Source: Arenicola marina (taxonomy: Eukaryota > Annelida > Polychaeta > Arenicolidae). Taken from it: a stretch of DNA of 64,000 bases. Under the pieces are notes generated by a model that was not told where the DNA came from, made no database searches, and was given only the letters and a program-made list of their open reading frames with translations. The stretch lies in the NCBI GenBank assembly GCA_964019135.1, contig OZ025249.1:5258039-5322038 (forward strand). The letters are read 5' to 3'. Positions 20,318 to 62,043 of this stretch are shown here, in pieces. Within the stretch, counting starts at the first letter, position 1; the number at the start of each line of letters is the position of its first letter. Made by a program: the position numbers and the translations under genes.

Positions 20318-20816
20318 ACGTCATGTGTGCTGTGAAGCCTACCATCCAGCTGTGACAGAGGTCAGTGACGTCATGTGTGTTGTGAATTATACCATCCAGC
20401 TGTGACAGAGGTCAGTGACGTCATGTGTGCTCTGACGCCTACCAGCCAGCTGTGACAGAGGTCAGTGACGTCATGTGTGCTGTGACGCCTACCAGCCAGC
20501 TGTGACAGAGGTCAGTGACGTCATGTGTGCTGTGAAGCCTACCAGCCAGCTCTGACAGAGGTCAGTGACGTCATGTGTGCTGTGACGCCTACCAGCCAGC
20601 TGTGACAGAGGTCAGTGACGTCATGTGTGCTGTGACGCCTACCAGCCAGCTGTGACAGAGGTCAGTGACGTCATGTGTGCTGTGACGCCTACCAGCCAGC
20701 TCTGACAGAGGTCAGTGACGTCATGTGTGCTGCGACGCCTACCAGCCAGCTGTGACAGAGGTCAGTGACGTCATGTGTGCTGCGACGCCTACCAGCCAGC
20801 TCTGACAGAGGTCAGT
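20318..20816. repeat. 50-bp minisatellite in OAS-A 3' UTR
   Basis: About ten 50-bp units, each with the palindrome TGACGTCA and the module ACCAGCCAGCTGTGACAGAG. The last unit overlaps the end of OAS-A exon 6: on the - strand the first unit encodes the final residues (ALTSVRAGW) and the TAG stop. The rest lies between stop codon and poly(A) signal, so it should be transcribed as 3' UTR. Confidence 0.9.
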
Positions 20817-23800
20817 GCGGGGCTTCCCAGCGCCTTTCTCGCTACCTCGGCTACTTCCGGCCAAGCCTTGAATCCGGCCGCGACGTCGTTGAAGGGGTTC
20901 GCGGGATCCAGCACAAAAGGCCTAAGGATTGTAAAGAGGATGTGCAGATGAAGTTTATTGAACCAGCTAAAGGAGCTTTTACATTTCGACGTAACTATTG
21001 ATTAGTGTTAGTGCCTCGGTTGTTTTACGTCAAAGTTAGCGTTGTTTATAGTAGATAAACAAAAATAAGTTTACAGTTTTTTTACTCCACTAAATGACTA
21101 TAAACGCGTTTGTCAAATTAACAAATAAAGTAAGGTCTGACGGGTTTATTTGTTGAATTATTGTATCTGAGCGTTATTTCGGAATTCTCCAATGATGTCA
21201 CGACATTGACAGATGAGCTTGGATGCAGGGCATCTGTCGTCGAGGACGTGTATTTTTCTCCTGGTTAATTGCTTTTCGTTGAGTTCTAGCCAGTGAGCAG
21301 AGAGAATCTGCCTCAATGCAAGAGCCCATGCGTCTGTAGTCCCCTTTGACGTCACCTCACTCTCAGAATTTCAATTGGCAAGTGCGAAACTAAATGGGAA
21401 AGGTATTACCTTATACTTTTTGGAGCGTTATAACTCAAACATATCAGGGAGTAAACACAGAAAAATAATATGAGCTAAAGTTGTTTTGGGGTGGCACCAA
21501 CTATTTAAATAATAAATGACTGAATTGTTCATACGTACAATGAGGTAAAATATTTTTTCATATTTACAGAATCTATATTCGAATTTCGTGTTTCCTTAAA
21601 AACACGACAAATAAACACGTGTGGGCGTAGGGATTTACCTGCGGTTTCTCCTTTGAGACTCCTTGAGGCGGCTGATTTCGCCGGCAAACTCGTGTGCCTG
21701 GTAATTCTCGGTCCACTGAACGTCCAGAGTGTGGTTGTTCGCCAGTGCCTCCATCACGGCCTTGAAGGCACGGGGCAGCTTGAAGGCTCGGTCCAGCTTG
21801 AAGGATTTCAGCTCTCCAGCCTTCTCCCACAGGTGGATGACGATCAGTTCTAACGGATAGGACGTCGGCAGTATGCCTTTTTCTGATCTCCCCTGAAGGT
21901 TAAAGTAAATAATAATGTTAACACTACAGGCGCAGATCCAAGATTTTGAAAATGTCAGGGGTGGATGAGGGGTGGGGGGGGGGGGGGGCGGAGCTCCACT
22001 ATGAGTAGGTTCGAAAATCAGACGACCGGAGCTGAGGAGAGGTGGGGAGTGGGGGGACCCGAAAAAGTTTACGCACAGTTTGCTTGAACAAGGTCGTCGT
22101 CACTCGTGGTCATGTGGTGTTAAGTGCAATATGTTTACAGGAAACCTGGTTATCCGATGATGATGATACTGGCCTGTATGAACTCAATGACTATGTATTA
22201 ATATCACAGGGTAAATACTGTAGTGCGCGTGGAGGCCTGTTGACATATCTCCACAAATCATATGGGTTTACTTACAAAGCAAACCCTGTAAAACCGGACA
22301 TATGGGAAGCGCAATTTATTGAAGGGTCTGGACAGGAAAATGTTGGGAGGTAACATATATTGATGTATCCATGTGACATAAATGAAAATTATGCGACGTT
22401 TTCTCAAGAATTAACTGATGTTATACTTTCATTTGAGAGAAGTAAACCACATAGAGAATGCATTCTAGCAGGTGATTTTAACATAGACCTTTTAAAGATT
22501 TGTGAAAAATCAGCAATTAGCGATTACTTTGATACCATTGTAGCTTGTAGTTTTCTTCCAAAAATCACATTGCCGACTAGACTGTCGCGTAATAGGGGTA
22601 CGTTGATTGATAATTGTCTATATAAGTTAACACCCAGCTCATTAAATACAACAGCTGGCATTATATTGAAAGCTATCTCAGACCATCTCCCGTATTACTT
22701 ATCTTTAGGCATTGGTGTGCGACGCTCAAACAACACGCCCACATATATTAATATAAAAACCAATGATGCACAATCAGTAGAGAAATACAAAACACAAATT
22801 GCCAACGCAGACGCATTAGGTAAAATAGACAGAGACCTATGTGCCGATCCTAACAGTAACTATGAGATCATTGAGGATATAATTACACATGCCAGGGATA
22901 TATGTTTACCAAGCAAGACAGTAAAATTTAATAAGAGAAAACACAAAAAGCCAAACTGGATCACCGCTGGTATTAGCATTTAAGAACAAACTTTATAAAA
23001 AGCTTATAATTGACAGCACCAAACTCCTGTCAATACGATACTCTCAAAACCAATTTTAGGACGTATGAAACCCTACTAAAAAATAGTATTCGATTGGCCA
23101 AAAGATCATGCTTTCGCAAAATGTAAAGGGGACATCCAGACAACTTGGAATGCAATAAGATCCGTCATTAATAGGTCAAACCGAAAGGACAATTTCCCTG
23201 AGCTCTTTAATATTAATGGGAAGCCAACATCTGACCTTTCGGCTATAGCAAATGGCTTTAATGATTTGTTTGGCACCATTGGTACTAAAAGTGCCAGTAA
23301 ATACAATCAGGACCCAAACCAAAATTATACTAGCTATCTAGGCCATCCCTGTAAAAACAAACTGGTGTTTACTTTAATTGACCATAATGTCACTAATAAA
23401 ATAATTGATGAGCTGAAACCTAAGGCTAGTTCTGGGCATGATGACATGTCGATGAAAATGCTAAAACTATTAAAAGCAGATTTAAGTAAGCCAAGTACTC
23501 ACATCATTAGCCAATCAATTTCTACTGGTATATTTCCGGATAAATGAAAACTTGCAAAAGTAGTGCCAGTTTTTAAAAAGGGGGACAAATCTAATATGGA
23601 TAACTATGGGCCAATTTCAATTTTGCCAGCCATATCCAAGGTTTTTGACAAAGTAATCTATAATCAGATGTATGGACACTTTGATCACGAAACCCTGTTT
23701 AATAGTGGTCAGTATGGTTTCCGGAATAAAACGTTTAACCCAATTAGCTACACTAAAATTAATTGATAGAACCATACATAAAATAGATAAAGGGGAGATC

Positions 23801-26800
23801 CTATTAGCTAAGCTAAGACACTATGGGGTTTCCGGGCTGGCTTCTACAAAATTATCTTCACAATCGCAAACACTATGTAAGCATAGATAATGTTCAATCA
23901 CAACAAGTACTGATCTCCCGAGGAGTACCGCAGGGGTCAATACTTGGCTCTTTTCTATTTATAATATATATAAACGACATATCAAGAGCGAGTTCAATAT
24001 TTAGTGGAATTGTTTACGCTGACGATACAACCCTTTCTAGCACACTAAGTACATTAGCGCCAAAAAGTAATGTACGCCGAAGTAGTGAAGTGTTAAACCA
24101 CGAACTGTCTCTAGTAAGCAATTGGCTTAAACTTAACCAACTATCTCTAAACATTAAAAAGACCAAATTTATGTTATTTTATATGCCACAAAAGCGGGTA
24201 ACGATACCGGAACTTTGTATTGAAAATACCAAGCTGGAATGCGTTGACGACTTTGATTTTCTTGGATTGACCCTACATAAACATCTGAAATGGTCCAATC
24301 AGGTTGATAAAAATTGCTTTTAAAATATCTAAGGTAGTTGGAGTCATGCAGCATCTAAAATATACCCTTCCGCAACAGATTCTTCTAACATTTATAACTC
24401 GCTCATTTTATCTCACTTGCACTACTGCATATTAGCCTGGGGATACAAAAGTGACCGGTTGAACCAAATCCAGAAAAAAGTTATTCGCATCATCACTAGA
24501 TTGCGCACACTGAGCCCTTATTTAAGCCTCTTTCCATCTTCCCCGTATATTAGACCAACATGAGTGTAACACCAGATGTGAGCATAATATAATTATACCC
24601 AGAACCAAGCACACATTTGCCGAACATTGCATCCGCTATTACTTGGCCCATTTAATAAACCGAACTTCAAAATACATTTTAACGAAGATATTTACCCATT
24701 CAATAGAGGGATAATCTACATATGTAAAAAATAGAGTTATTGATAGATACTGTGTTGACTGTTTTAAAGTTAATTGTTATGTCTGCCACAAAGAATTATC
24801 CCCCAAATTATTATTTGTATATCATATGTACTATTGAATTGTAATGGTGTCTATCGGTAATTGCTTACCCAATTTGTCCTTATAGAAGTCTTGTTCTCCG
24901 TATTTTTTAGTTGTTTTTTTATCCTTTTTTCTTTCTTTTGAGGTAGCCACCATGCCAGCGACTGCGTCATAATGGTGGTCTCCTCGGCCAGGGCTTATAT
25001 TTTGTTTTTTTGCTGTATGTTGTATTGTAATTGTTCCTGGTTGAAATAAATTATGATTCTCTCTCTCAAGGAGAAATAAAACCAAGATAATCTAGAAAAA
25101 AAATATAAGCTTATAGGACATGAGGTGGATGGGGGGGGGGGAGATGGAGGGGGTGGGGGTGTGGGACCGGGCGCGGCTGAGATATTGTATCTCTTAAGTA
25201 AGTGTGAAGCTACCCCCATTGTTTTGGTCACTCACGGTAAAGTAGGTCTTCCTCCAGTGCTTCACGAGTCGGATCAAGTTCTTCACCAGCGCCGGCTGCT
25301 TGCTAACGAACTCGATCTGCAGCGAGGCCAATGAGGCTGAATAGTCCTGCCGCTTGGAGGCGCTAGCAGCAGCCATCTCGGCATAAGTGGCCCGTTTACC
25401 TAATAGTACATAGTGTGTAAAGGACAACTTGAAGATGAGTGGTACCGGTGGAGAATGGGGCTGCCAAGGTATTTCTCTAAATATATAACCTTTTGATACA
25501 TATATTACGTTTACCACAATACATAAAACCATGAAAGCCGATTACGAGACACGTTAGACGTCTAGAAGAACACAAAGCACAGCCGAATTGAGTGGCAATG
25601 ACCTTTGTCTCTAAGATGGTCCTGAGTGGGCAGGATGTCTACGTCGGTGAAGGGGTCCCCAGTCCGGATGCGGTATTTGATCTGGGCAGCATGTGGCGTT
25701 GGGCGTTCCACCTGCACTAGTTGTGGGAACTTCCAGTCCTTCAAATCGTTGTTCAACTGCTCAACAGTGGCCTTCGTATTCACATAACCCTCAATGAAGA
25801 CGACCAGGTCCAAATCAGACTTGTCCCTAATCTGGGTGCCCTTTCCGAAACTACCGCCCTTGAGAAAGAGGGTTAATGAGAATGAGACATCTTATATCAA
25901 TGATGTTATAGGGCGCCAATCCATATATATATATTACAATGAGAATTACCCATTTATCCATTATTGTATATAACAGTTAACATTTATACATCGACATTTG
26001 ACATTTGACATTGACCCCCAAATTCCGAAATGGAGGATCTGAAAAAGCGACATCGACACAGATGGCGGCATTTAAAAAAAAACGACATTCCACATCGAGA
26101 ATTTTGGAAAATCGACACTGGATACTGGCCCTGTCTTCAGGACCCCTACTGAACCCGCCCTTCCAGACCCCTACGTATCATTGTTCAAACACGGGTCTGC
26201 GAATTAGTCCGATTGTTCCATGCTATAAATGGATATTTCTGTCTCATGGTCAATTAACGATTCTATGAATAACAGGCTGGAGGTAACGTTTCTAATGGTT
26301 ATACTGCATTATATATGGCACCAACAATGGCAGAACTTAATATCTTTTGGAATAACCATGGAATTAATGGTCAGTTATTGCCACTCACTTCCTAATTCAA
26401 TGTCCAGTATCAGTATTTGACCGTATATCCTATAAATCCATGACCAATATCGGACTGACCCGTGACCAACCTTCACAACCTTGGACACTGGAAATGAGGT
26501 TTTCTCCTTGAGGAATGTGGCTAAGCCATCCACCAGTTCGCCAGCCTTCTTGTTGGCCTCAGCTGTCGGCTGAAGGTTCTTGGTGACATAATCAGTGAAA
26601 TCCAAAGATCCAATTTGAAGGAACACTGGAAATGTTAATAGTACTCTAGACCACAATGACATACAATACATAGGCCAACGACCACTGATAGATTAGCTAG
26701 CTATGCCATGCATACATTTTTAAACAAATCATTAATGAAATTCATTTTATTGACGTTCATCTTATATTGCAAAAAATATATGCCATCAGCGCGCATCAAT

Positions 26801-27136
26801 TATTCATTACAGGCAAGGGCAGTGCGCTTGATCAGGAGTTGTTTTCAGAAATGTTAATATCGTATTAATGACATCTCTACTAAATACTGAAGTAATTATC
26901 GCATATTCAGTTGATACTTTGACTGACGGCAGTCCGTCCGTTTGTACTGTCAGTGTCTGATCGTTAAGTGACAGTACTTTGGAATTCTCAACTGTTTAAA
27001 ATCTAGTACTAAATTAAGCAGTTTAAACTGGTTGCGTACAAATAATTTAAGTACGAAAGGAATTTCAAATTTTTGCCATAGACCGACCGACATCATTTGG
27101 CAGTGAAAACTCACGTTGAGAGTCGGAAGCCGCCAT
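20789..27136 (-). CDS. OAS: 2'-5'-oligoadenylate synthetase, copy A (six exons)
   Basis: Exons in transcript order: 27136-27115, 26625-26471, 25858-25603, 25399-25236, 21892-21639, 20921-20789. All junctions are GT/AG and phases join to give 327 residues starting MAASDSQ. OAS enzymes polymerise ATP into 2'-5'-linked oligoadenylates, in vertebrates on sensing dsRNA. Visible signatures are the nucleotidyltransferase motif GGSFGKGT (60-67), catalytic aspartates in SDLDLVVF (D74, D76) and VDILPT (D133), the helix KNLIRLVKHWRK, YPLELIVIHLWEKAG, and the C-terminal RPFVLDPANPFND. Length fits a single-domain OAS. Exon 5 has six extra residues (KLPRAF duplication) compared with B and C. The donor after exon 3 is the weak GTCATT. 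Intron 4 carries a LINE and intron 2 a MITE. Vertebrate enzymes need dsRNA, and whether this one does cannot be told from sequence. RNase L was not seen in the window. Confidence 0.92.
22105..25067 (+). mobile_element. LINE (Jockey/CR1-L2-like), 5'-truncated, in OAS-A intron 4
   Basis: Antisense to OAS-A. Coding remnants read left to right: endonuclease domain (CLQETWLSDDD; ILAGDFNIDLL; LPTRLSRNRGTLIDNC; SDHLPYY), then reverse transcriptase (YGPISILPAISKVFDKVI; RGVPQGSILG; YADDTTL). ORF1 and the endonuclease N-terminus are missing. The frame is broken by several stops and frameshifts. The 3' end has AATAAA and a (TC)n tail. The borders are defined by OAS-C, where the flanks CGTCGTCACT and CAAGAGAAATAAAACC are adjacent with no LINE between them. 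Confidence 0.9.
25995..26171. mobile_element. TIR MITE in OAS-A intron 2, left end lost
   Basis: Right end CCTTCCAGACCCC|TA is present and the left terminal repeat is missing. The interior matches the complete copies in intron 2 of OAS-B and OAS-C, at the same position. Confidence 0.75.
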
Positions 27137-27212
27137 CACTAGTGGAGTCACGCCTGTGGTGTGAGCTGAACGAGATCTGCCTGCTCACTGCGGCACTCTG
27201 GGGGGTAAGCTG

Positions 27213-32467: not shown

Positions 32468-33168
32468 TGACGTCATGTGTGCTGTGAAGCCTGCCAGCCC
32501 GCTGTGACAGAGGTCAGTGACGTCATGTGTGCTGTGACGCCTACCAGCCAGCTATGACAGAGGTCAGTGACGTCATGTGTGCTGTGACGCCTACCAGCCA
32601 GCTATGACAGAGGTCAGTGACGTCATGTGTGCCGTGACGCCTACCAGCCAGCTGTGACAGAGGTCAGTGACGTCATGTGTGCTGTGAAGCCTACCAGCCA
32701 GCTGTGACAGAGGTCAGTGACGTCATGTGTGCTGTGACGCCTACCAGCCAGCTGTGACAGAGGTCAGTGACGTCATGTGTGCTGCGACGCCTACCAGCCC
32801 GATGTGACAGAGGTCAGTGACGTCACGTGTGCTCTGACGCCTACCAGCCAGCTGTAACAGAGGTCAGTGACGTAATGTGTGCTCTGACGCCTACCAGCCA
32901 GCTGTGACAGAGGTCAGTGACGTCATGTGTGCTGTGATGCCTACCAGCCAGCTGTGACAGAGGTCAGTGACGTCATGTGTGCTGTGACGCCTACCAGCCA
33001 GCTGTGACAGAGGTCAGTGACGTCATGTGTGCTGTGAAGCCTACCAGCCAGCTGTGACAGAGGTCAGTGACGTCATGTGTGCTGTGACGCCTACCAGCCA
33101 GCTGTGACAGAGGTCAGTGACGTCATGTGTGCTGTGACGCCTACCAGCCAGCTCTGACAGAGGTCAGT
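32468..33168. repeat. 50-bp minisatellite in OAS-B 3' UTR
   Basis: About 14 units of the TGACGTCA-bearing 50-bp repeat. The first unit (right end) encodes the last residues and stop of OAS-B. Confidence 0.9.
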
Positions 33169-36100
33169 GCGGGGCTTCCCAGCGCCTTTCTCGCTACCTC
33201 GGCTACTTCCGGCCAAGCCTTGAATCCGGCCGCGACGTCGTTGAAGGGGTTCGCGGGATCCAGCACAAAAGGCCTAAGGATTGTAAAGAGGATGTGCAGA
33301 TAAAGTTTATTGAACCAGCTAAAGGAGCTCTTACATTTCGACGTAACTATTGATTAGTGTTACTGCCACGGTTGTTTTACGTCAAAGTTAGCGTTGTTTA
33401 TAGTAGATAAACAAAAATAAGTTTACAGTTTTATTATTCCACTAAATGACTATAAACGCGTTCGTCAAATTAACAAATAAAGTAAGGTCTGACGGGTTTA
33501 TTTGTTGGATTATTGTATCTGAGCGTTATTTCGAAATTCTCCAATGATGTCACGACATTGTGCGAAAGTACGAAAGTAAGTGGGAAAAGTATTCCCTTAT
33601 ACTTTTTGGAACGTTATAATTCAAACATATCAGGGAGTAAACACAGAAGAATAATATGAGCTGAAGTTGTTTTGGCGTGGCACTAACTATATAAGTAAAA
33701 AATGACTGAATTGTTCATACATACAATGAGGTAAATTATATTTTCATATCTACAGAACATATATGCGAATTTCGTGTTTCCTTACAAAACACGATAAATA
33801 AACACGTATGGGCGTACGGATTTACCTGCGGTTTCTCCTTTGAGACTCCTGGAGGCGACGGATTTCGCCGGCAAACTCGCGTTCCTGGTAATTCTCGGTC
33901 CACTGAACGTCCAGGGTGTGGTTGTTCGCCAGTGCCTCCATCACGGTCTTGAAGGCTCGGTCCAGCTTGAAGGAGGCCGGCCGACCAGCCTTCTCCCACA
34001 GGTGTATGACGATCAGTTCTAACGGATAGGACGTCGGCAGTATGCCTTTTTCTGATCTCCCCTGAAGGTTAAAGTAAATAATAACGTTAACACTACAGGC
34101 GCAGATCCAAGATTTTGAAAATGTCAGGGGTGGATGAGGGGTGGGGGGGGGGGGGGCGGAGCTCCACTATGTGTAGGTTCGAAAATCAGACGACCGGAGC
34201 TGGGGAGAGGTGGGGGGCGGGGGGACCCGAAAAAGTGTACGCACAGTTTGCTTGAAAAAGGTCGTCGTCACTCGTGGTCATGTGGTGTTAAGTACAATAT
34301 GTTTACAGGAAACCTGGTTATCCGATGATGATGATACTGGCCTGTATGAACTCAATGACTATGTATTAATATCACAGGATAAATACTGTAGTGAGCGTGG
34401 ATGCCTGTTGATATATCTCCACAAATCATATGGGTTTACCTGCATAGAAAACCCTGTAAAATCGGACATATGGGAAGCGCAATTTACTGAAGTGGCTGGA
34501 CGGCCCACTCACAGGAAAATGGTGATACGTAACATATATCGACCTCCATGTGACATAAATGAAAATTACGCGACGTTTTCTCAAGAATTAACTAAGGTTA
34601 TATTTTCATTTGAGAGAAGTAAACCACATAGAGAATGCATTCTAGCAGGTGATGTTAACATAGACCTTTTAAAGATTTGTGAAAAATCAGCAATTAACGG
34701 TTACTTTGATTCCATTGTAGCTTGTAGTTTTCTTCCAAAAATCACATTGCCGACTAGACTGTCGCGTAATAGGGGTACGTTGATTGATAATTGTCTAAAA
34801 AAATTAACATCCAGCTCATTAAATACAACTGCTGGAATTTTATTGAGGGCTATCTCAGACCATCCCCCGTATTACTTATCTTTAGACATTGATGTGCGAC
34901 GCTCAAACAAAACGCCCACATATATTAATATAAAAACCAATGATGCACAATCAGTAGAGAAATTCACACAACACAAATTGCCAAGGCAGACGCATTAGGT
35001 AAACTAGACAGAGACCTATGTGCCGATCCTAACAGTAACTATGAGATCCTTGAGGATATAATTACACATTCCAGGGATATATGTTTACAAAGCAAGACAG
35101 TAAAATTTAATAAGAGAAAACACAAAAAGGCAAACTGGATCACCACTGGTATTATTAAGTCAATAGCATTTAAGGACAAACTTTATAAAAAGCTTAAAAT
35201 GACAGCGCCAAACTCCTGTCAATACCATACTCTCAAACCCAATTTTAGGACGTATGAAACCCTACTAAAAAATATTATTCGGTTGGCCAAAGGATCGTAT
35301 TATTATCATGCTTTCGAAAAATGTAAAGGGGACATCCAGGCAACTTGGAAAGCAATAAGATCCGTCATTAATAGGTCAACCCGAAAGGACAAATTCCCTG
35401 AGCTCTTTAATATGAATGAGAAGCCAACATCTGACCTTTCGGCTATAGCAAATGGCTCTAATTATTTTTTTGGCACCATTGGTACTAAAAGTGCCAGTAA
35501 AATCAATCAGGACCCAAACCAAAATTATACTAGCTATTTAGGCGATTCATGTAAAAACAAACTGGTGTTTACTTTAATTGACCATAATGTCACTAATAAA
35601 ATAATTGATGAGCTGAAACCTAAAGCTAGTTCTGGGCATGATGACATGTCAATGATAATGCTGAAACTATTAAAATTAGATTTAAGTAAGAAAATTACTC
35701 ACACCATTAACCAATCAATTTCTACTGGTATATTTTCGGATAAATTAAAACTTGCAAAAGCAGTGCCAGTTTTAAAAAAGGGGGAAAAATCTAATATGGA
35801 TAACTATAGGCCAATTTCAATTTTGCCAGCCATATCTAACGTTTTTGAAAAAGTAATCTATAATCAGATGTATGGAAACTTTGATCACGAATAGTGGTCC
35901 GGAAAAAACATTCAACCCAATTAGCTACACTAAAATTAATTGATAGAACCATACATAAACTGTGTTATTATAGGCTGCTGCATGATGATCTCCCTCCATA
36001 TTTTATTACCTTTTTCCATTTTTCCGTATATTAGACCAACATGAGTGTAACACCAAATTTATTAGCAAGCATAATATCATTATACCAAGAACCAAGCACA

Positions 36101-38743
36101 AATTTGCCGAACATTGCATCAGCTATTATTTGACCCATTTAATAAACCGAACTTCAAAGAACATTTTTACGAAGATGTTTACCCATTCAATAGCGGGATA
36201 ATATACACATATAAAAAATAGAGTTATTGATAGATACTGTGTTGACTGTTTAAAAGTTAATTGTAGTGTCTGCCACAAAGAATTATAAAGATACTACGTT
36301 TTATCTAATCCCCCGAATTATTATTTGTATATCATATGTACTATTGAATTGTAATGGTGTCTATCGATAATTGCTTACCCAATTTGTCCTTATAGAAGTC
36401 TTGTTCTCCGTTTTTTTAGTTGTTTTTTTATCCTATTTTCTTTCTTTTGAAGTGGCCACCATGCCAGCGACTATGTCATAATGGTGGTCTCCTCGGCCAG
36501 GGATTATATTTTGTTTTAGCTGTATGCTGTATTGTATTGTTCCTGGTCGAAATAAATGATGATTCTCTCTCTCAACGAGAAATAAAACCACGATAATCTA
36601 GAAAAATATATATATATAGGACATGAGGGAGGGGACTGGGCGCGGCTGAGATATTGTATCTCTCAAGTAAGTGTGAAGCTACCCCAATTGTTTTGGACAC
36701 TCACAGTGAAGTAGGTCTTCTTCCAGTGCTTCACGAGTCGGATCAAGTTCTTCACCGGCGCCGGCTGCTTGCTAACGAAATCGATCTGCAGCGTGGTCAA
36801 TGAGGCTGAATAGCCCTGCCGCTCGGAGGCGCTAGCAGCAGCCATCTCGGCATAAGTGGCCCGTTTACCTAATAGTACATAGTGTGTAAAGGACAACTTG
36901 AATATGAGTGGTACCGGTGGATCATGGGTCTGCCAAGGTATTTCTCTAAATATATAACCTTTTGATACATATATTACGTTTACTACAATACATAAGATCA
37001 TGAAAGCCGATTACGAGACACGTTAGAAGATTAGAAGAACAAAAAGCACAGCCGAATGGAGTGGCAATGACCTTTGTCTCTAAGGTGGTCCTGAGTGGGA
37101 AGGATGTCTATGTCGGTGAAGGGGTCCCCAGTCCCGATGCGGTATTTGATCTGGGCAGCATGCGGCGTTGGGCGTTCCACCTGCACGTATTGTGGGAACT
37201 TCCAGCCCTTCAAATCGTTGTTCAACTGCTCAACAGTGGCCTTCGTATTCACATAACCCTCAATGAAGACGACCAGGTCCAAATCAGACTTGTCCCTAAT
37301 CTGGGTGCCCTTTCCGAAACTACCGCCCTTGAGAAAGAAGGTTAATGAGAATGAGACATCTTATATCAATGATATTATAGGGCGCCAACCCACATATAAC
37401 AATGAGAATTACCCATTTATCCATTATTGTATATACCAGTTAACATTTATCCATCATTGTATATAACAATCACCCATTTATCATAACAATATCATTGTAT
37501 ATAACAGTTAACCATTTATTCATTTTATATTAATTATTTATAGGGTTCAGGAAGGGGTAAATGGCGACACGCGATACAGGCATATTGAAAAATCGACATT
37601 TGACATTGACCCCCAAATTCCGAAACGGAGGATCTGAAAAAGCGACATCGACGCAGATAGCGGCAAACGACACTAAACGACAAAAATCAACATTCCACAT
37701 CGAGAATTTTGGAAAATCGACACTGGATACTGGACCTGTCTGCAAGACCCCTACTGAACCCGCCCTTCCAGACCCCTACTCTAGCCCCCCCCCCACCCTT
37801 CCAGACCCCTATTTATCATTATCATTGGTCAGCGAATTAGTCCGAGTGTTCCATGCTATACATGGATATTTCAAATGGTCAATTAACGATCTTATGAATA
37901 AGAGGCTGGAGGTAACGTTTCTAATGTGTATACTGCATTATATATGGCACCAACAATGGCAGAACTTAATATCTTTCGGGATAACCATGGAATTAATGGT
38001 CCGTTATTGCCACTCACTTCCTAATTCAATGACCAGTATCAGTATTTGCTTGTATATCTCATAAATCCATGACCAATATCCGACTGACAAGTGACTAACC
38101 TTCACAACCTTGGACACTCGAAATGAGGTTTTTTGCTGGAGGAATGTGACTAAGCCATCCACGAGTTCGCCAGCCTTTCTGTTGGCCTCAGCTGTTGGCT
38201 GAAGGTTCTTGGTGACATAATCAGTGAAATCCAAAGATCCAGTTTGAAGGAACACTGGAAATGTTAATAGTACTCTAGAGCACAATGATATACAATACAT
38301 AGGCCAACGATCACTGATAGATTAGATAGCTATGCCATGCATGAATTTTCAATCAAATCATTAATGGAATTCACTTAATCGACGTTCACCTTATATTGTA
38401 AACAAATATGCCATCAGTGCGTATCAAGTCTTCATTAGAGGCAAGGGCAATGCGCTTGGTCAGGAGTTTGATCAGTATACATAATTTCAGAAATGTTCGT
38501 ATTGATGACATATTTACTAAATACTGAAGTAAATACTGAAGTAATTATCGCATATACAGTTTATACTTTGACTGACGATAGACAATGGCAGTCCGTCACC
38601 ATTTGTACTGTCAGTGTCTCATCGTTGAGCGACATTACTTACGTAGAAATCATTTAAATACGAAATGGATTTCAAACTTTTGCCATAGATTGGCCGACAT
38701 TATTTGGCAATGAAAACTCACGTTTAGAGTTGGAAGCCGCCAT
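33141..38743 (-). CDS. OAS: 2'-5'-oligoadenylate synthetase, copy B (six exons)
   Basis: Exons: 38743-38722, 38254-38100, 37327-37072, 36868-36705, 34061-33826, 33273-33141. Splice phases match OAS-A exactly, giving 321 residues starting MAASNSK. GGSFGKGT, SDLDLVVF and IDILPT (catalytic aspartates), KNLIRLVKHW, YPLELIVIHLWEKAG and FVLDPANPFND are intact. The donor after exon 2 is a better GTTAGT than in A. Exon 5 lacks the six-residue insertion of A. Intron 4 holds the same LINE as A, further deleted, and intron 2 holds the MITE. Most differences from A in exon 3 are conservative or at few positions (for example FPQYVQ, YRIGTG, FTDIDIL). Enzyme role as for copy A. No obvious disabling change is visible. 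Confidence 0.92.
34273..36572 (+). mobile_element. LINE (Jockey/CR1-L2-like) in OAS-B intron 4
   Basis: Same insertion site, orientation, 5' truncation and 3' tail as the LINE in OAS-A intron 4. The endonuclease and N-terminal reverse transcriptase regions remain (LPTRLSRNRGTLIDNC; RPISILPAISNVFEKVI). The segment with the YADD catalytic box is deleted just after about 35893. Frames are broken, with different lesions from copy A, so both decayed independently after duplication. Confidence 0.9.
37543..37809. mobile_element. TIR MITE in OAS-B intron 2
   Basis: TA|GGGTTCAGGAAGGGG at left and CCCTTCCAGACCCC|TA at right; interior rich in CGACA words. It is flanked by TA on both sides, as expected for a TA target-site duplication (Tc1/mariner-type). 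Non-coding. Confidence 0.8.
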
Positions 38744-42597: not shown

Positions 42598-42756
42598 TCT
42601 AATACCGTTAGTGTGGTCTAGCGGTGGTCAACTCTCACTACTTTGGTCAACCCTCACGACACAAGATGGGGAGGGGAGGAGGGGGCGGGGGCGGGGGGCT
42701 GCAGGGAGGTTACATGCTTCTATTACGGATGAAGAGGGACGTCGGGTGGGATGTCT

Positions 42757-44497: not shown

Positions 44498-44697
44498 NNN
44501 NNNNNNNNNNNNNNNNNNNNNNNNNNNNNNNNNNNNNNNNNNNNNNNNNNNNNNNNNNNNNNNNNNNNNNNNNNNNNNNNNNNNNNNNNNNNNNNNNNNN
44601 NNNNNNNNNNNNNNNNNNNNNNNNNNNNNNNNNNNNNNNNNNNNNNNNNNNNNNNNNNNNNNNNNNNNNNNNNNNNNNNNNNNNNNNNNNNNNNNNN
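44498..44697. other. Assembly gap (200 N)
   Basis: Exactly 200 N, probably a placeholder of unknown true size, inside the satellite/foldback repeat region. Confidence 0.95.
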
Positions 44698-45330: not shown

Positions 45331-45529
45331 TAAGCCTACGTGACAGCTGTGACGACAATTGATCTAATACCGTTAGTGTGGTCTAGCGGTGGTCAACTCT
45401 CACTACTTTGGTCAACCCTCACCGACACAAGATAGGGAGGGGAGGAGGGGGCGGGGGCGGCGGGCTGCAGGGAGGTTACATGCTTCTATTACGGATGAAG
45501 AGGGACGTCGGGTGGGGTGTCTCACATGA
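45331..45529. other. Left flank of satellite block C2
   Basis: Near-identical to 42555-42756: one 35-bp unit, TGGTCTAGCGGTGGTCAACT, a G-rich stretch and GGGAGGTTACATGCTTCTAT. Non-coding. Confidence 0.6.
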
Positions 45530-48088: not shown

Positions 48089-48614
48089 CACGCTCGTTTC
48101 AATTTGGTTGATTTTCCTAAATATTTGCAGTGGGCGGTGGACAAACACATGTTGGTTCCACGGTCCCGCCTCGGCGGGCCAACGATTGATCTTGATGGGG
48201 TATACTGGGGTGATGTGTGAGGGGGGTGGGGGGTGGTCAGGATGTTGGTGGAGGAGGAGAACACAAGCTCACTACATGCAATTAGTTATAACAATAACGC
48301 GACACATATCCATTTATAAACAACTTTCTCCAACACCACGGTTCTGATTTGTTCAAATAATTTCCCAACCATACCAGCGATTTCAGGTTGGAAATGAAAA
48401 CAATGTCAAACAATACCTCGTTAGCGTAATGTGTAAGTCAAGTAAAGTCAAATATCATTCCCATGTAGTAACATTTAGTGCACTAAAACCAAGCAATTGT
48501 TCATACACGCATAAAACCAGGGTTTGGAGACCCTAAATCGGAACCCCACATCTTTATTGATGCTTGCTGGTTTTTGTAAGTCACTTGTGCATCTTGTCAC
48601 ACTGGAAATCAAAA
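48089..48614. other. Spacer right of satellite block C2
   Basis: Homologous to 17541-18011. Includes CCTAAATATTTGCAGTGGGC and the GTAAGTCACTTGTGCATC module before the GC minisatellite. No gene recognised. Confidence 0.6.
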
Positions 48615-49037
48615 GCCACCCCGGGCCCACCACAGCCACCCGGGCCCGCCACAGCCACCCGGGCCCGCCACAGCCACCCCGGGCCCACCACAGCCACCCG
48701 GGCCCGCCACAGCCACCCCGGGCCCGCCACAGCCACCCCGGGCCCGCCACAGCCACCCCGGGCCCGCCACAGTCACCCCGGGTCCGCCACAGCCACCCCG
48801 GGCCCGTCACAGCCACCCCGGGCCCGCCACCGCCACCCCAGGCCCACCACCGCCACCCCGGGCCCGCCAAAGCCACCCCGGGCCCGCCACAGCCACCCCG
48901 GGCCCGCCACAGCCACCCCGGGCCCGCCACAGCCACCCCGGGCCCGCCACAGCCACCCCGGGCCCGCCACCGCCACCTCGGGCCCACTACAGCCACCCCG
49001 GGCCCGCCACAGCCACCCCGGGCCCGCCACCGCAGCA
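48615..49037. repeat. 20-bp GC-rich minisatellite
   Basis: About 21 units of CCACCCCGGGCCCGCCACAG. The right border CCGCAGCAAT joins directly to the interior of a 28-bp monomer (TCACAGAAATCGAG), unlike unit A where AATTGTATGC follows. Confidence 0.95.
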
Positions 49038-52000: not shown

Positions 52001-55000
52001 TGAATCCCCTTTCCCACATCACAGAAACCGAGCCCCTTTTCCACATCACAGGAACCGAGTCCCCTTTCCCACATCACAGAAACCGAGCCCCTTTCCCACA
52101 TCACAGAAACCGAGCACCTTTCCCACATCACAGGAACCGAGTTCCCTTTCCCACATCACAGGAACCGAGTCCCCTTTCCCACATCACAGGGACCGAGTCG
52201 CCTTTCCCACATCACAGGGGCCGAGTTCCCTTTTCCATATCACAGGAACCGAGTCCCCTTTCTCACATCACAGGAACCGAGTCCCCTTTCCCACATCACA
52301 GGAACCGAGTCCCCTTTCCCACATCACAGGAGCAGAGTCGCCTTTCCCATATCACAGAAGCCGAGTTCCCTTTCCCATATCACAGAAATCGAGTCCCCTT
52401 TCCCATATCACAGGGGCTGAATCCCCTTTCCCACATCACAGAAACCGAGCCCCTTTCCCACATCACAGGAACCGAGTCCCCTTTCCCACATCACAGAAAC
52501 CGAGCCCCTTTCCCACATCACAGAAACCGAGCACCTTTCCCACATCACAGGAACCGAGTTCCCTTTCCCACATCACAGGAACCGAGTCCCCTTTCCCACA
52601 TCACAGGGACCGAGTCGCCTTTCCCACATCACAGGGGCCGAGTTCCCTTTCCCATATCACAGGAACCGAGTCCCCTTTCTCACATCACAGGGGCCGAGTC
52701 CCCTTGCCCACATCACAGGGACCGAGTCCTCTTTCCCATATCACAGGGACCGAGTCTTCTTTCCCACATCACAGGGACCGAGTCCTTTTTCCCATATCAC
52801 AGGGACCGAATCCTCTTTCCCACATCACAGGGACCGAGTCCTCTTTCCCACATCACAGGGACCGAGTCCCCTTTCCCACATCACAGGAACCGAGTCCCCT
52901 TTCCCACATCACAGGGACCGAGTCCCCTTTCCCACATCACAGGAACCGAGTCCCCTTTCCCACATCACAGGAACCGAGTCCCCTTTCGCACATCACAGAG
53001 ACCGAGTCCCCTTTCCCACATCACAGGAACCGAGTCCCCTTTCCACATCACAGGAACCGAGTCCCCTTTCCCACATCACAGGGACAGAGTCCCCTTTCCC
53101 ACATCACAGGAACCGAGTCCTCTTTCCCACATCACAGGAACCGAGTCCCCTTTCCCACATCACAGGAACCGAGTCCCCTTTCCCACATCACAGGGACCGA
53201 GTCCCCTTTCCCACATCACAGGGGCCGAGTCCCGTTGCCCACATCACAGGGACCGAGTCCTCTTTCCCATATCACAGGGACCGGGTCTTCTTTCCCACAT
53301 CACAGGGACCGAGTCCTTTTTCCCATATCACAGGGACCGAATCCTCTTTCCCACATCACAGGGACCGAGTCCTCTTTCCCACATCACAGGGACCGAGTCC
53401 CCTTTCCCACATCACAGGAACCGAGTCCCCTTTCCCACATCACAGGGACCGAGTCCCCTTTCCCACATCACAGGAACCGAGTCCCCTTTCCCACATCACA
53501 GGAACCGAGTCCCCTTTCGCACATCACAGAGACCGAGTCCCCTTTCCCACATCACAGGAACCGAGTCCCCTTTCCACATCACAGGAACCGAGTCCCCTTT
53601 CCCACATCACAGGGACCGAGTCCCCTGTCCCACATCACAGGAACCGAGTCCTCTTTCCCACATCACAGGAACCGAGTCCCCTTTCCCACATCACAGGAAC
53701 CGAGTCCCCTTTCCCACATCACAGGGACCGAGTCCCCTTTCCCACATCACAGGGACCGAGTCCCCTTTCCCACATCAAAGGAGCCGAGTCCCCTTTCCCA
53801 CATCACAGGGACCGAGTCCCCTTTCCCACATCACAGGGACCGAGTCCCCTTTCCCACATCACAGGGGCCGAGTCCCCTTGCCCACATCACAGGGACCGAG
53901 TCCTCTTTCCCATATCACAGGGACCGAGTCTTCTTTCCCACATCACAGGGACCGAGTCCTTTTTCCCATATCACAGGGACCGAATCCTCTTTCCCACATC
54001 ACAGGGACCGAGTCCTCTTTCCCACATCACAGGGACCGAGTCCCCTTTCCCACATCACAGGAACCGAGTCCCCTTTCCCACATCACAGGGACCGAGTCCC
54101 CTTTCCCACATCACAGGAACCGAGTCCCCTTTCCCACATCACAGGAACCGAGTCCCCTTTCGCACATCACAGAGACCGAGTCCCCTTTCCCACATCACAG
54201 GAACCGAGTCCCCTTTCCACATCACAGGAACCGAGTCCCCTTTCCCACATCACAGGGACCGAGTCCCCTGTCCCACATCACAGGAACCGAGTCCTCTTTC
54301 CCACATCACAGGAACCGAGTCCCCTTTCCCACATCACAGGAACCGAGTCCCCTTTCCCACATCACAGGGACCGAGTCCCCTTTCCCACATCACAGGGACC
54401 GAGTCCCCTTTCCCACATCAAAGGAGCCGAGTCCCCTTTCCCACATCACAGGGACCGAGTCCCCTTTCCCACATCACAGGAACCGAGTCCCCTTTCCCAC
54501 ATCACAGGAACCGAGTCCCCTTTCCCACATCACAGGGACCGAGTCCCCTTTCCCACATCACAGGGACCGAGTCCCCTTTCCCACATCAAAGGAGCCGAGT
54601 CCCCTTTCCCACATCACAGGGACCGAGTCCCCTTTCCCACATCACAGGGACCGAGTCCCCTTTCCCACATCACAGGGGCCGAGTCCCCTTGCCCACATCA
54701 CAGGGACCGAGTCCTCTTTCCCATATCACAGGGACCGAGTCTTCTTTCCCACATCACAGGGACCGAGTCCTTTTTCCCATATCACAGGGACCGAATCCTC
54801 TTTCCCACATCACAGGGACCGAGTCCTCTTTCCCACATCACAGGGACCGAGTCCCCTTTCCCACATCACAGGAACCGAGTCCCCTTTCCCACATCACAGG
54901 GACCGAGTCCCCTTTCCCACATCACAGGAACCGAGTCCCCTTTCCCACATCACAGGAACCGAGTCCCCTTTCGCACATCACAGAGACAGAGTCCCCTTTC

Positions 55001-55706
55001 CCACATCACAGGAACCGAGTCCCCTTTCCACATCACAGGAACCGAGTCCCCTTTCCCACATCACAGGGACCGAGTCCCCTGTCCCACATCACAGGAACCG
55101 AGTCCTCTTTCCCACATCACAGGAACCGAGTCCCCTTTCCCACATCACAGGAACCGAGTCCCCTTTCCCACATCACAGGGACCGAGTCCCCTTTCCCACA
55201 TCACAGGGACCGAGTCCCCTTTCCCACATCAAAGGAGCCGAGTCCCCTTTCCCACATCACAGGGACCGAGTCCCCTTTCCCACATCACAGGAACCGAGTC
55301 CCCTTTCCCACATCACAGGAACCGAGTCCCCTTTCCCACATCACAGGGACCGAGTCCCCTTTCCCACATCACAGGGACCGAGTCCCCTTTCCCACATCAC
55401 AGGAACCGAGTCCCCTTTCCCACATCACAGGAACCGAGTCCTCTTTCCCACATCACAGGGACCGAGTCCCCTTTCCACATCACAGGAACCGAGTCCCCTT
55501 TCCCACATCACAGGGACCGAGTCCCCTTTCCCACATCACAGGAACCGAGTCCTCTTTCCCACATCACAGGGACCGAGTCCCCTTTCCACATCAAAGGAGC
55601 CGAGTCCCCTTTCCCACATCACAGGGACCGAGTCCCCTTTCCCACATCACAGGAATCGAGTCCCCTTTCCCACATCACAGGAACCGAGTCCCCTTTTCCA
55701 TATCAC
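49038..55706. repeat. 28-bp satellite, block C3 with higher-order repeats
   Basis: About 238 monomers. A marker variant (CCCCTTGCCCACATC and one CCGTTGCCC) recurs near 49780, 51422, 52704, 53235, 53878 and 54689. The last intervals are 531, 643 and 811 bp, each one base short of a multiple of 28, because each carries one 27-bp monomer (CTTTCCACATC). The 1043-codon open frame here is a repeat artefact. Confidence 0.95.
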
Positions 55707-56522: not shown

Positions 56523-56528
56523 TTTATT
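56523..56528 (-). terminator. Poly(A) signal of OAS-C
   Basis: AATAAA on the - strand with the conserved GT-rich downstream element, about 670 nt after the stop codon. Confidence 0.65.
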
Positions 56529-56869
56529 CGACTGCATTGTGCTTACATTCGCTGTTCGCGTCCAAACAAATAAGGTGGAATTATTGACGAACGTCAAATC
56601 ACTATCGTAAAGCCGATCACTCAGAACAAACCAGGCAGCAAGTCTTATTAATATTTGCCCATGTCTAATTTATTGCATTAAATGTATATAGCTGTACCCC
56701 GAAGGATTATCAATAACGCATCATTGGTGTATGCTTAGAAATAATTAACATCAGTATTATAACCTAATAATAACGTATAATCATTAAACTGCTGCAGACC
56801 AATTAAAACTCTTTTTTTTCAATATTGCTGTATATATGGATGCCGTGACGTCATTACTGGCGTGCATAC

Positions 56870-57220
56870 TGACGTCATGTATGCTGTGAAGCCTACCAGC
56901 CAGCTGTGACAGAGGTCAGTGACGTCATGTGTGCTGTGACGCCTACCAGCCAGCTGTGACAGAGGTCAGTGACGTCATGTGTGCTATGAAGGCTGCCAGC
57001 CAGCTGTGACAGGGGTCAGTGACGTCATGTGTGCTCTGACGCCTACCAGCCAGCTGTGACAGAGGTCAGTGACGTCATGTGTGCTGTGACGCCTACCAGC
57101 CAGCTGTGACAGAGGTCAGTGACGTCATGTGTGCTGTGACGCCTACCAGCCAGCTGTGACAGAGGTCAGTGACGTCATGTGTGCTGTGATGCCTACCAGC
57201 CAGCTCTGACAGAGGTCAGT
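56870..57220. repeat. 50-bp minisatellite in OAS-C 3' UTR
   Basis: About seven units with TGACGTCA palindromes, the shortest of the three arrays. The first unit encodes the end of OAS-C. Confidence 0.9.
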
Positions 57221-60200
57221 GCGGGGCTTCCCAGCGCCTTTCTCGCTACCTCGGCTACTTCCGGCCAAGCCTTGAATCCGGCCGCGACGTCGTTGAACGG
57301 GTTCGCGGGATCCAGCACAAAAGGCCTAAGGATTGTAAAGAGAATGTGCAGATAAAGTTTATTGAACCAGCTAAAGGTGCTCTTACATTTCGACGTATAT
57401 AATATCCATTGATTATAGTGTCCACCATTGTTTTAGGTCAAAGTTAACTTTGTTTATAGAAGATAAACAAAAATAATAATGTGTTTCAATAGAGTTTACA
57501 GTTGTTTTATTCCACAAAAGCGCTCTTTGAGGTCACTTTCCCCGCTCTCTGAATTTCAAATGGCAAGTGCGCAAATAAGTGGAAAAGTATTCCCCCGTAC
57601 TATTTGGGGCGTTATAGCTCAAAAATACACAATAAACACAGAAGCAGAATATGAGCTGAAGTTGTTTTGGCGTGGCAAGAACTATTTAAATTAAAAAAAT
57701 TACTGAAATATTCACACCAACTATTTAAATTCAAAAATGACTGAAATATTCACCAACTATTTAACTAAAAAAAGTACTTAAATGTTCACACATACAATGA
57801 GATAATTTTTTTTTTCATATTTACAGAACTTATATCCGAATATCGTGTTTCCTTACAAAACACAATAAATAAACACGTGTGGGTGTACGGATTTACCTGT
57901 TATTTTTCTCAGCTTTGAGGCGACGGATTTCGCCGGCAAACTCGCGTTCCTGGTAATTGTCGGTCCACTGAACGTCCAGGGTGTGGTTGTTCGCCAGTGC
58001 CTCCATCACGGCCTTGAAGGCTCGGTCCAGCTTGAAGGAGGCCGGCCGACCAGCCTTCTCCCACAGGTGGATGACGATCAGTTCTAACGGATAGGACGTC
58101 GGCGGTATGATGCCTCTTCCGGGTCTCCTCTGAACGTTAGTAAAAGTAATTAATAGTGTTAAGGTAAGCCACCCATAATAGCAAGGTAAAAGAACTCTGT
58201 ATTTGTAATTATTTTATAAAAGTGTACCCAATTACACACCTTCTGGTGAATTTTTAGGATACTTTACTGTCCCGTTAAAAAAATATGCTCCATTTTCCAA
58301 GTATACCCCCATTTTACAAAATGACCAAGACTTGACACCTACCACGAATATGTAATTTTGCTACAATTCAGCTCAATATTAAGCCATTATAATCAGTAAT
58401 AGCTCTTTAGAAAGCTTAAATCTAGTGCAATACGAGAATGATATTCAACAATGTAAATAGTAGCCACAAAAAATAACAGAATGGCAATAATAAAGTGCAG
58501 TTATGCAAAAACAGGACCGTTTTTGCCAAAATTCGAAATCACAACCTTCACAAAATTGCCTTTTTTGCTGCCTTTTGTTGCCGGGGTGGCTGTGGTGGGC
58601 CCGGGGTGGCTGTGGCGGGCCCGGGGTGGCTGTGGCGGGCCCGGGGTGGCTGTGGTGGGCCCGGGTCGGCTGTGGCGGGCCCGGGGTGGCTGTGGTGGGC
58701 CCGGGGTAGCTGTGGCGGGCCTGGGGTGGCTGTGGCGGGCCCGGGTCGGCTGTGGCAGGCCTGGGGTGGCTGTGGCGGGCCCGGGTCGGCTGTGGCGGGC
58801 CCGGGGTGGCTGTGGCGGGCCTGGGGTGGCTGTGGCGGGCCCGGGTCGGCTGTGGCGGGCCCGGGGTGGCTGTGGCGGGCCCGGGGTGGCTGTGGTGGGC
58901 CCGGGGTGGCTGTGGCGGCGGGCCCGGGGTGGCGGTGGCGGTGGCGGCGGCGGTGGCGGCGGCGGGCCCGGGGTGGCTTTTGATTTCCAGTGTGACAAGA
59001 TGCACAAGTGACTTACAAAAACCAGCAATTAATTTGATCAAAAATGAAAATCTTGACACCAAACCACGTTTAAAAACTTCTAAAAACATATAGGTAGCCG
59101 TGCAAATTTCCCGAGAAACACGTCCTGAAACTTGAAAATGTTATTTCAGAAATATTTTTTGGAGCAGCTTATTTCACACCAATTATCAGTAATTTACGCT
59201 TTGTGCTCACATTTTAATAAATCTGGTTATATATAATGGTCTCCGATAGAATTATGATCTACACGAATGTTTTCTGAACTATTTACACGTTTTCTCCATG
59301 TTTTTTTCTTGAATATTCGGAATTTATCACGAAGAGCCATTCTCGGGGAAATACCCTGTGAATGACGTCACGAATTGGGGATTCCCTGTGAATGACGTAA
59401 CGAGTTAGGGATTCCCCTTTCACTGACACCCGCCGATGTTTGTCGATGTTTACCGAGGTCTTCTCTAAATCGCCGAAACTTATTATACGATGTTCTAATT
59501 ATTTTACCTATGTCACCACTTCTTTTGCAGTGTTTTATTCGCGCTTTGTTTCATTAAGACTGCTTAAAATATCAGGGCTACAGCCCGCCGATGTTTGCCG
59601 ATGTTTACCGAGGTCTGTTCAAAATCGCCGAGGCTCATTATGGGTGGCTTACCTTAATACAACAGGCGCAGATCCAATATTTTGGATAAATGTCAGGGGT
59701 GGATGAGGGGGTGGAGAAGAGCTCCACTATGAGTATGTTCGAAAATCTAAAGACTGGACCTGGGGGGGGGGGGGCTGAAAAAGCTTTTGCACAGTTTGCT
59801 TGACAAAGGTCGTCGTCACTCCAAGAGAAATAAAACCAAGATAATCAAGAGAAAATATATATGGGACATGAGGGGGGAGGGGCGGGCGCGGCAAAGATCG
59901 TGTATCTCTTAAGTAAGTGTGAGGCTAACCCCCTTGTTTTGGTTACTCACGGTGAAGTAGGTCTTCTTCCAGTGCTTCACGAGTCGGATCAAGTTCTTCA
60001 CCAGCGCCGGCTGCTTGCTAACGAACTCGATCTGCAGGGTGGTCAATGAGGCTGAATAGTCCTGCCGCTCGGAGGCGCTAGCAGCAGCCATCTCGGCATA
60101 AGTGGCCCGTTTACCTAATAGTATATAGTGTGTACAGGACAACTTGAATATGAGTGGTACCGGTGGATCATGGGGCTGCCAAGGTATTTCTCTAAATCTA

Positions 60201-62043
60201 TAACCTTTCGATATATATATTACGTTTATGACAATACATAAAACCATGAAAGCCGATTACGAGACACGTTAGAAGATTAGAAGAACACAAAGCACAGCCG
60301 AATTGCGTGGCAATGACCTTTGTCTCTAAGGTGGTCCTGAGTGGGCAGGATGTCTACGTCGGTGAAGGGGTCCCCAGTCAGGATGCGGTATTTGATCTGG
60401 GCAGCATGCGGCGTTGGGCGTTCCACCTGCATTAGTTGTGGGAACTTCCAGTCCTTCAAATCTTTGATCAACTGCTCAACAGTGGCCTTCGTATTCACAT
60501 AACCCTCAATGAAGACGACCAGGTCCAAATCAGACTTGTCTCTAATCTGGGTGCCCTTTCCGAAACTACCGCCCTTGAGAAAGAAGGTTAATGAGAAAGA
60601 GACACCTTATATCAATGATATTATAGGGCGCCAACCCATATATATTACAATGAGAATTACCCATTTATCCATTATTGTATATAACAGTTAACATTTATAC
60701 ATCATTGTATATAACAGTTAACATTTATCCATCATTGTATATAACAATCTCCCATTTATCATAACAATATCATTGTATATAACAGTTAACCATCATTGTA
60801 TATTAATTATTTATAGGGGTCTGGAAGGGGTGAATGGCGACACGCGACACAGGCATATTGAAAAATCGACATTTGACATTGACTCCCAAATTCCGAAACG
60901 GAGGATCTAAAAATCGACATCGACACAGATAGCAGCATTTGAAAAAAAAAAAACGACACTAATCTTAGCAAAAATATCGACGTTCCACATCGAGAATTTT
61001 GGAAAATCGACACTGGATACTGGACCTGTCTTCACGACCCCTACTGAACCCGCCCTTCCAGACCCCTACTCTAGCCCCCCCCCCCCCACCCTTCCAGACC
61101 CCTACGTATCATTGTTCAAACACGGGTCTGCGAATTAGTCCGATTGTTCCATGCTATACATGGATATTTCTGTCTCATGGTCAAATGGCCAATTAACGAT
61201 CCTATGAATAACAGGCTGGAGGTAACGTTTCTAATGTGTATACTGCATTATATATGGCACCAACAATGGCAGAACTTAATATCTTTTGGAATAACCATGG
61301 AATTGATGGTCCGTTAATTCCACTCACTTCCTAATTGAATGTCCAGTATCAGTATTTGACTGTATATCCTATACATCAATGACCAATATCCGACTGACCC
61401 GTGACTAACCTTCACAACCTTGGACACTCGAAATGAGGTTTTGTGCTGGAGGAATGTGACTAAGCCAGCCACCAGTTCGCCAGCCTTCTTGTTGGCATCA
61501 TCTGTCGGCTGAAGGTTCTTGGTGACATAATCAGTGAAATCCAAAGATCCATTTTGAAGGAACACTGGAAATGTTAATAGTACTCTAGAGCACAATGATA
61601 TACAATACATAGGCCAACGATCACTGATAGATTAGATAGCTATGACATGCATAAATGTTCAAACAAATCATTAATGGAATTAATTTCATTGACATTCATC
61701 TTATATTGCAAAAAATATATGCCATCAGCGCGCATCAAGTCTTCATTACTGGCAAGGGCAGTGCGCTTGATCAGGAGTTGTTTTCAGAAATGTTAATATC
61801 GTATTAATGATATACAGTTGATATTTTGACTGACGGCAGTCCGTCCGTTTGTACTGTCAGTGTCTGATCGTTAAGTGACAGTACTTTGGAATTCTCAACT
61901 GTTTAAAATCTAGTACTAAATTAAACAGTTTAAACTGGCTGCGTACAAATAATTTAAATACGAAATGAATTTCAAATTTTTGCCATAGACCGGCCGACAT
62001 TATTTGGCAGTGAAAACTCACGTTGAGAGTCGGAAGTCGCCAT
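57193..62043 (-). CDS. OAS: 2'-5'-oligoadenylate synthetase, copy C (six exons)
   Basis: Exons: 62043-62022, 61564-61410, 60573-60318, 60114-59951, 58129-57897, 57325-57193, giving 320 residues starting MATSDSQ. Catalytic motifs GGSFGKGT, SDLDLVVF and VDILPT, the KNLIRLVKHW helix, YPLELIVIHLWEKAG and FVLDPANPFND are intact. It is the most distinct copy: exon 5 begins RRPGRGIIPP instead of GRSEKGILP and ends RLKAEKNNR, and exon 2 has TDDANKKAGELVAG. Intron 4 lacks the LINE found in A and B and instead has a TTAA-flanked element. TATA box and a STAT-like site lie upstream. Same predicted enzymatic role. The distinct exon 5 could alter product or activator specificity, which is inference only. 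Confidence 0.92.
58163..59653. mobile_element. piggyBac-like non-autonomous element in OAS-C intron 4
   Basis: Seventeen-base perfect terminal inverted repeats (GGTAAGCCACCCATAAT) directly inside TTAA duplications (58159-58162 and 59654-59657). OAS-A and OAS-B carry single TTAA empty sites at the homologous intron position (21918-21921, 34087-34090). The interior has no transposase frame but contains an inverted copy of the GC minisatellite module and a doubled GCCGATGTTT...ACCGAGGTCT segment (59428-59478, 59586-59635). TTAA duplication and TIRs fit the piggyBac superfamily. Confidence 0.8.
58582..58977. repeat. 20-bp GC-rich minisatellite, inverted, inside the TTAA element
   Basis: Units GGCTGTGGCGGGCCCGGGGT are the reverse complement of the arrays at 18012 and 48615, with the same border (GGCTTTTGATTTCCAGTGTG). 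It ends at the right with extra GGCGGT triplets. Confidence 0.9.
60816..61102. mobile_element. TIR MITE in OAS-C intron 2
   Basis: Best-preserved copy: TA|GGGGTCTGGAAGGGG at left, CCCTTCCAGACCCC|TA at right, 287 bp, CGACA-rich interior, and a second right-end-like sequence just inside (about 61045-61070). Same intron position as in OAS-A and OAS-B. Confidence 0.85.

Follow-up and report, generated by a model that had tools for sequence, protein, structure and literature searches.

A tandem array of OAS-family nucleotidyltransferase genes in the annelid Arenicola marina

A stretch of 64,000 nucleotides of the annelid Arenicola marina (assembly GCA_964019135.1, contig OZ025249.1, here called C2, positions 5258039-5322038; hereafter the window) holds three complete genes of the OAS family (2'-5'-oligoadenylate synthetase, an enzyme that takes part in sensing viral RNA in mammals), here named A, B and C, which lie head to tail on the minus strand, and a broken fourth copy, D, begins beyond its edge. 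The locus is probably a lineage-specific tandem array of annelid OAS-family nucleotidyltransferase genes, with three working copies and one broken copy. As read from the sequence, the copies share one gene structure, belong to the OAS family, keep its catalytic residues, arose by duplication and have a mosaic history. Here, we describe the array, the signs of constraint on its members and the competing explanations, on the basis of the window and of searches of the genome (867 Mb, 762 contigs).

Gene structure and family membership

The three genes were reconstructed as spliced models; positions are those of the window, with lengths in nucleotides (nt) and amino acids (aa).

20789..27136, minus strand: OAS gene A, spliced model, 984 nt coding, 327 aa, Pfam OAS1_C 114.6 bits; exons 27136-27115, 26625-26471, 25858-25603, 25399-25236, 21892-21639, 20921-20789
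33141..38743, minus strand: OAS gene B, spliced model, 966 nt coding, 321 aa, Pfam OAS1_C 125.1 bits; exons 38743-38722, 38254-38100, 37327-37072, 36868-36705, 34061-33826, 33273-33141
57193..62043, minus strand: OAS gene C, spliced model, PDB matches, 963 nt coding, 320 aa, Pfam OAS1_C 116.2 bits; exons 62043-62022, 61564-61410, 60573-60318, 60114-59951, 58129-57897, 57325-57193

The exons measure 22, 155, 256, 164, 254/236/233 (A/B/C) and 133 nt, the intron phases are 1, 0, 1, 0 and 2 in each gene, all 15 introns have GT-AG borders and no internal stop codon interrupts the spliced models. The original prediction, made from this DNA before any search, of three six-exon minus-strand genes with the same exon phases is thus borne out, and its limits, 20789-62043, are exact, the stop codon of A ending at 20789 and the ATG of C beginning at 62043. 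In A, B and C alike, the donor of intron 3 (GTCATT) matches the consensus only weakly. At the protein level the identity is 92% between A and B (294/321), 90% between A and C (286/319) and 90% between B and C (288/319). C is the most divergent copy in exon 5, as had been noticed at the outset, with 28 differences in 230 nt from A and 19 in 230 from B, against only 15 in 236 between A and B; the same exon of A carries an 18-nt insertion missing from B and C. In exon 6 the three pairs differ at 0, 1 and 1 of 133 nt.

All three proteins score far above the cut-off of the Pfam OAS1_C domain (19.9 bits) and, when protein C was compared with the PDB, seven of the eight sequences with E ≤ 1.3e-6 were OAS or OASL, the eighth being the bacterial CdnC, and the other 19 sequences listed had E ≥ 0.83. 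The nearest solved relatives are OAS2, OAS1, OAS3 and OASL (E 4.5e-48 to 1.1e-26), which confirms the family proposed in the original prediction. The proteins share with vertebrate OAS1 (PDB 4IG8, 4RWN, 1PX5) the two-domain nucleotidyltransferase organisation, OAS1_C, a GGS..GKGT P-loop-like motif and three aspartates. In particular, the nucleotidyltransferase motif and the catalytic aspartates (D75, D77 and D148 of human OAS1) are kept in all three copies, as predicted; the stretch GGSFGKGTQIRDKSDLDLVVF is identical across A, B and C, and the motif of the third aspartate reads FTDVDILP in A and C and FTDIDILP in B. The proteins belong to the same superfamily as cGAS, the cGAS-like receptors (cGLRs) and the bacterial CD-NTases (C matches CdnC, PDB 6P80, at E 1.3e-6, and SMODS stays below its cut-off), but unlike cGAS and the cGLRs they carry OAS1_C, and the Mab-21 family domain, the mark of cGLRs, gave no match at E ≤ 0.01 in any of the three.

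Aligned to human OAS1, C is identical at 84 of 256 residues, and positions S56, K60, K66, R210, K213 and Y230 are kept in the three copies. Unlike vertebrate OAS1, all of them have isoleucine for R195 and serine for K199, with a lysine adjacent to the latter position, aligned to Q200; T203 (Ala), K204 (Leu, Pro, Leu), Q158 (Asp) and R130 (His) are also replaced. Among the acceptor-pocket positions, S187 and Q194 are kept, T188 is alanine in all copies and T191 is alanine in A only. In OAS1, R195 and K199 contact double-stranded RNA (dsRNA). The groove of OASL that includes R196 and K200 is reported to be needed for its dsRNA-dependent function (PMC4446440), and sponge enzymes that make 3'-5' products as well are reported to have lost the acceptor residues corresponding to pig T187 and T190 (PMC6307210). 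On this residue comparison, catalysis by A, B and C is likely and their dependence on dsRNA is doubtful. The proteins would polymerise ATP into short oligonucleotides with 2'-5', perhaps also 3'-5', linkages.

Extent and mosaic history of the array

A full-length search of the genome with the spliced protein C returned 17 exon matches, all at C2:5278830-5334283; of the six exon types, four are matched three times each, and D adds one match for exon 2 and one for exon 3. Copy D begins 14.7 kb past the start codon of C, outside the window, and the start codons are unevenly spaced, at 11,607 (A-B), 23,300 (B-C) and 14,720 bases (C-D). In D, exons 1 and 2 have open frames. Compared with A-C, exon 3 lacks one base at the acceptor junction and continues into a gap of 200 N, and a search of 30 kb past the window gave no exons 4-6. 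D is therefore broken as assembled, though it may reach beyond the gap. The tandem triplication originally described holds as a local duplication and falls short in its count, since the array is at least fourfold with the broken copy included. Of ten genome matches to Pfam OAS1_C, nine lie in the cluster and no convincing OAS was found elsewhere, in a search that scored the best candidates only, so that distant OAS paralogues may be missed. The tenth match (contig C3, 21.1 bits) was rejected as OAS, being of low complexity, with two stops and a best tblastn E of 1.2.

The following features lie within or between the genes (repeat units counted with Tandem Repeats Finder, TRF; LTR, long terminal repeat).

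22354..24323, plus strand (antisense to the gene): non-LTR-type retrotransposon remnant in intron 4 of A, RVT_1 53.3 bits, over cut-off
34177..35894, plus strand: the same non-LTR-type remnant in intron 4 of B, recognised by DNA match to that of A
44498..44697, no strand: assembly gap of 200 N between B and C
20316..20817, no strand: 50-bp minisatellite at the 3' end of A, 10.0 units (TRF)
32468..33169, no strand: 50-bp minisatellite at the 3' end of B, 14.0 units (TRF)
56870..57221, no strand: 50-bp minisatellite at the 3' end of C, 7.0 units (TRF)

The relationships among the copies change along the genes. In intron 1, A and C differ by 5.0%, with 11.9% for A-B and 10.3% for B-C; in intron 5, A and B differ by 6.5%, with 20.0% for A-C and 19.1% for B-C; gene A is nearest to C at its 5' end and to B at its 3' end. 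The 327 informative sites fall into 141 runs of site patterns, compared with a mean of 215.5 after shuffling, and none of 5000 shuffles was as low; the 255 non-coding informative sites alone form 110 runs, again with none of 5000 shuffles as low. Exchange between copies would be the simplest cause of this pattern, unequal exchange or gene conversion having mixed their sequences. The retrotransposon remnant also differs among the copies: intron 4 of A and B, with 185 mismatches in 2579 aligned bases, contains it (Exo_endo_phos 19.9 bits in A and 17.0 in B, both below cut-off), and it was not seen in intron 4 of C.

The 50-bp minisatellite starts inside the last exon, the final codons (LTSVRAGW, then TAG) being the first unit in each gene. 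The motif TGACGTCA, the consensus of CREB/ATF factors, has 30 of its 40 sites in the window inside the three arrays, and base composition predicts about one per 64 kb. A genome search with two units, in which very common words were skipped, gave 16 matches, only at the three OAS gene ends. A regulatory role can only be suggested for this minisatellite, which could equally well have arisen as a by-product of slippage where the gene ends. As regards the promoters, TATAWAAG is present in those of A and C only, the IRF/ISRE-like GAAANNGAAA (interferon regulatory factor/interferon-stimulated response element) is absent from the sense strand of all four, with a single antisense match in B and another in D, and no interferon-response motif is consistent across the copies.

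Constraint on the copies and competing explanations

The coding sequences hold 1 (A-B), 3 (A-C) and 2 (B-C) insertions or deletions (indels), all multiples of three, and intron rates predict 7.6, 8.2 and 11.5. In a neutral simulation the frame stayed intact in none of 4000 runs per pair; for A-B, A-C and B-C, respectively, 0.5%, 0.6% and 0.03% of runs had no frameshifting indel and 4.9%, 2.3% and 2.2% had no stop. Furthermore, 44 of 319 residues vary overall, but none of the 41 residues of the P-loop/DxD stretch does (hypergeometric P 0.0014), nor any of the 43 in the C-terminal stretch (P 0.0010). The ratio of non-synonymous to synonymous substitution rates (dN/dS; Nei-Gojobori, pairwise) is 0.44, 0.30 and 0.77 (AB, AC, BC) in the core exons 3 and 6, versus 0.66, 0.96 and 0.77 in the remaining exons. 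Frame preservation and the invariant motif stretches point to constraint on A, B and C, and selection would have kept the frames and the catalytic stretch. The earlier statement that all copies are apparently functional is supported by intact frames, catalytic residues and invariant stretches, and not by dN/dS over the whole coding sequence, which was expected to be well below 1 and is 0.60 (AB), 0.79 (AC) and 0.76 (BC), with bootstrap intervals of 0.35-1.15, 0.46-1.58 and 0.44-1.42 that all include 1 (5%, 22% and 19% of replicates reach it).

Several points weigh against an array of three working copies with a history of exchange. The dN/dS test does not show purifying selection, and in the BC pair the core exons do not stand apart from the rest; the indel rates behind the neutral simulation come from introns, where alignment can make them too high; the exon junctions are predicted from sequence alone; the mosaic pattern may be due in part to C having changed unusually fast in intron 5; and the absence of the pathway genes considered below rests on exon-by-exon domain searches.

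In the genome, the sole match to type I interferon (PF00143) scores 20.9 bits, under the cut-off of 26.8, and the description of an animal without classical interferon stands so far as no PF00143 match passes. The six IRF matches are all over cut-off, as are 10 of 12 STING exon matches (contigs C6 and C7, most of them on C6); matches to the STING ligand-binding domain look expanded. RNase L was not recognised in the PF06479 search, in which ankyrin repeats were not looked for. Its matches are three at one locus on contig C4, read by eye as IRE1 from a membrane segment and a kinase-like exon (RNase domain 59.5 bits, over the Pfam cut-off; kinase exon 12.4 bits, not over), and one on contig C7, rejected because it belongs to a repeat of high copy number (of 1250 candidates, 150 matches were scored). 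An open frame of this repeat (G000:C7:17952993-17953280; L038 7994-8281) scores 25.4 bits, over the cut-off of 23.3, for the RNase L/IRE1 ribonuclease domain, which may reflect chance or a captured domain. With neither RNase L nor interferon recognised, the product would be expected to work via a different receptor or to have a regulatory role, a proposal already made for OAS of other invertebrates.

The strongest competitor, possible although clearly less probable than the array described here, is an antiviral dsRNA-sensing cluster resembling the vertebrate OAS locus and diversified by virus pressure. The amino-acid divergence is high for the age of the copies, as the dN/dS values and the 44 variable residues indicate, positions S56, K60 and K66 are kept, and the genome has IRF and STING matches; dN/dS above 1, however, is not seen either, the groove residues R195 and K199 are replaced in every copy, albeit with a lysine aligned to Q200, RNase L is not recognised and the four promoters lack a sense-strand GAAANNGAAA. 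In addition, PMC6307210 argues that invertebrate OAS act without dsRNA and outside interferon pathways. A role as RNA-triggered antiviral sensor is possible, and the labels 'dsRNA sensor' and 'antiviral' are carried over from vertebrates.

It is rather improbable that only one or two copies work and the others are young, still unbroken pseudogenes whose frames were kept by recent gene conversion. The dN/dS intervals that include 1, the nearly identical exon 6, the mosaic history and a copy D that is already broken would fit such a state, but all 15 introns keep their splice sites, the catalytic stretch has no amino-acid change and the simulation never left a frame intact, a point that conversion would weaken. 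Less probable still is a divergence of the paralogues in ligand and product, with the signals detected by some receptor distinct from RNase L and the TGACGTCA minisatellite acting as a common element of regulation or exchange through which the array goes on evolving; replacement of the dsRNA-groove residues and loss of an acceptor-pocket threonine in A only would then mean different triggers and products. False duplication, in which the assembler set alternative haplotypes side by side, is very improbable: gaps of 200 N lie between B and C and inside D, but there is no N between A and B, introns diverge by 5-20%, the intron-4 retrotransposon is in A and B and not in C, and the minisatellites count 10, 14 and 7 units.

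Neighbouring features and significance

A very long 28-bp minisatellite, with a long spurious open reading frame running through it, occupies 45522-55706 (364 units) and 42756-44497 (63 units; TRF), the assembly gap ending the shorter array. Frames at 1928-2356 and 3050-3292 resemble by eye exons of a secreted Ly6/quiver-type protein, the former with no Pfam match, and no RNA families were found within the window. Outside it are exons of a DEAD-box helicase and a transposase frame of the DDE_Tnp_4 type (L005 5770-7136; L006 7687-8760). The mitochondrial record (15,942 bases) uses TGA for tryptophan in COX1 (13 TGA); its genes all lie on one strand, by eye in the order nad4L, nad4, rRNAs, nad1, nad3, nad2, cox1, cox2, cox3, nad6, cob, atp6, a long non-coding stretch and nad5, with tRNAs interspersed (25 predictions, some spurious), an arrangement that corresponds to clitellate annelids such as earthworms.

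The presence of OAS in animals that lack interferon is already established: PMC6307210 reports it from sponges, cnidarians, oyster, limpet, Lingula, springtail and acorn worm, in genomes without interferon or RNase L. Its Table 1 gives 23-33% identity to human OAS1 for invertebrate OAS, and protein C is alike, at 33% over the aligned part. Unlike those genes, the present ones are near-identical tandem copies in an annelid, a phylum with no member named in the consulted passages of that paper. Aplysia has neither OAS nor RNase L according to PMC9334734, so OAS is patchy among lophotrochozoans. We found no published report of an OAS cluster or duplication in annelids, in a search that most subscription journals lay outside. 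Tandem arrays of OAS genes have been described in rodents: the same source on invertebrate OAS counts twelve OAS genes in mouse and says that six OAS1 copies deviate in activity (PMC6307210). Like the rodent Oas1 clusters, the worm array is a local expansion in which some copies lose function, but it is an independent event, and its three complete copies all keep the catalytic aspartates. The array looks like a real but fairly ordinary expansion of a family known from many invertebrates.

The mosaic history of the array illustrates how such arrays change through exchange between copies. If all three copies are active, they would form a naturally occurring series of OAS paralogues in an annelid without recognised interferon or RNase L, in which the purpose of 2'-5'-linked oligoadenylates (2-5A) outside vertebrates would thus become directly testable.

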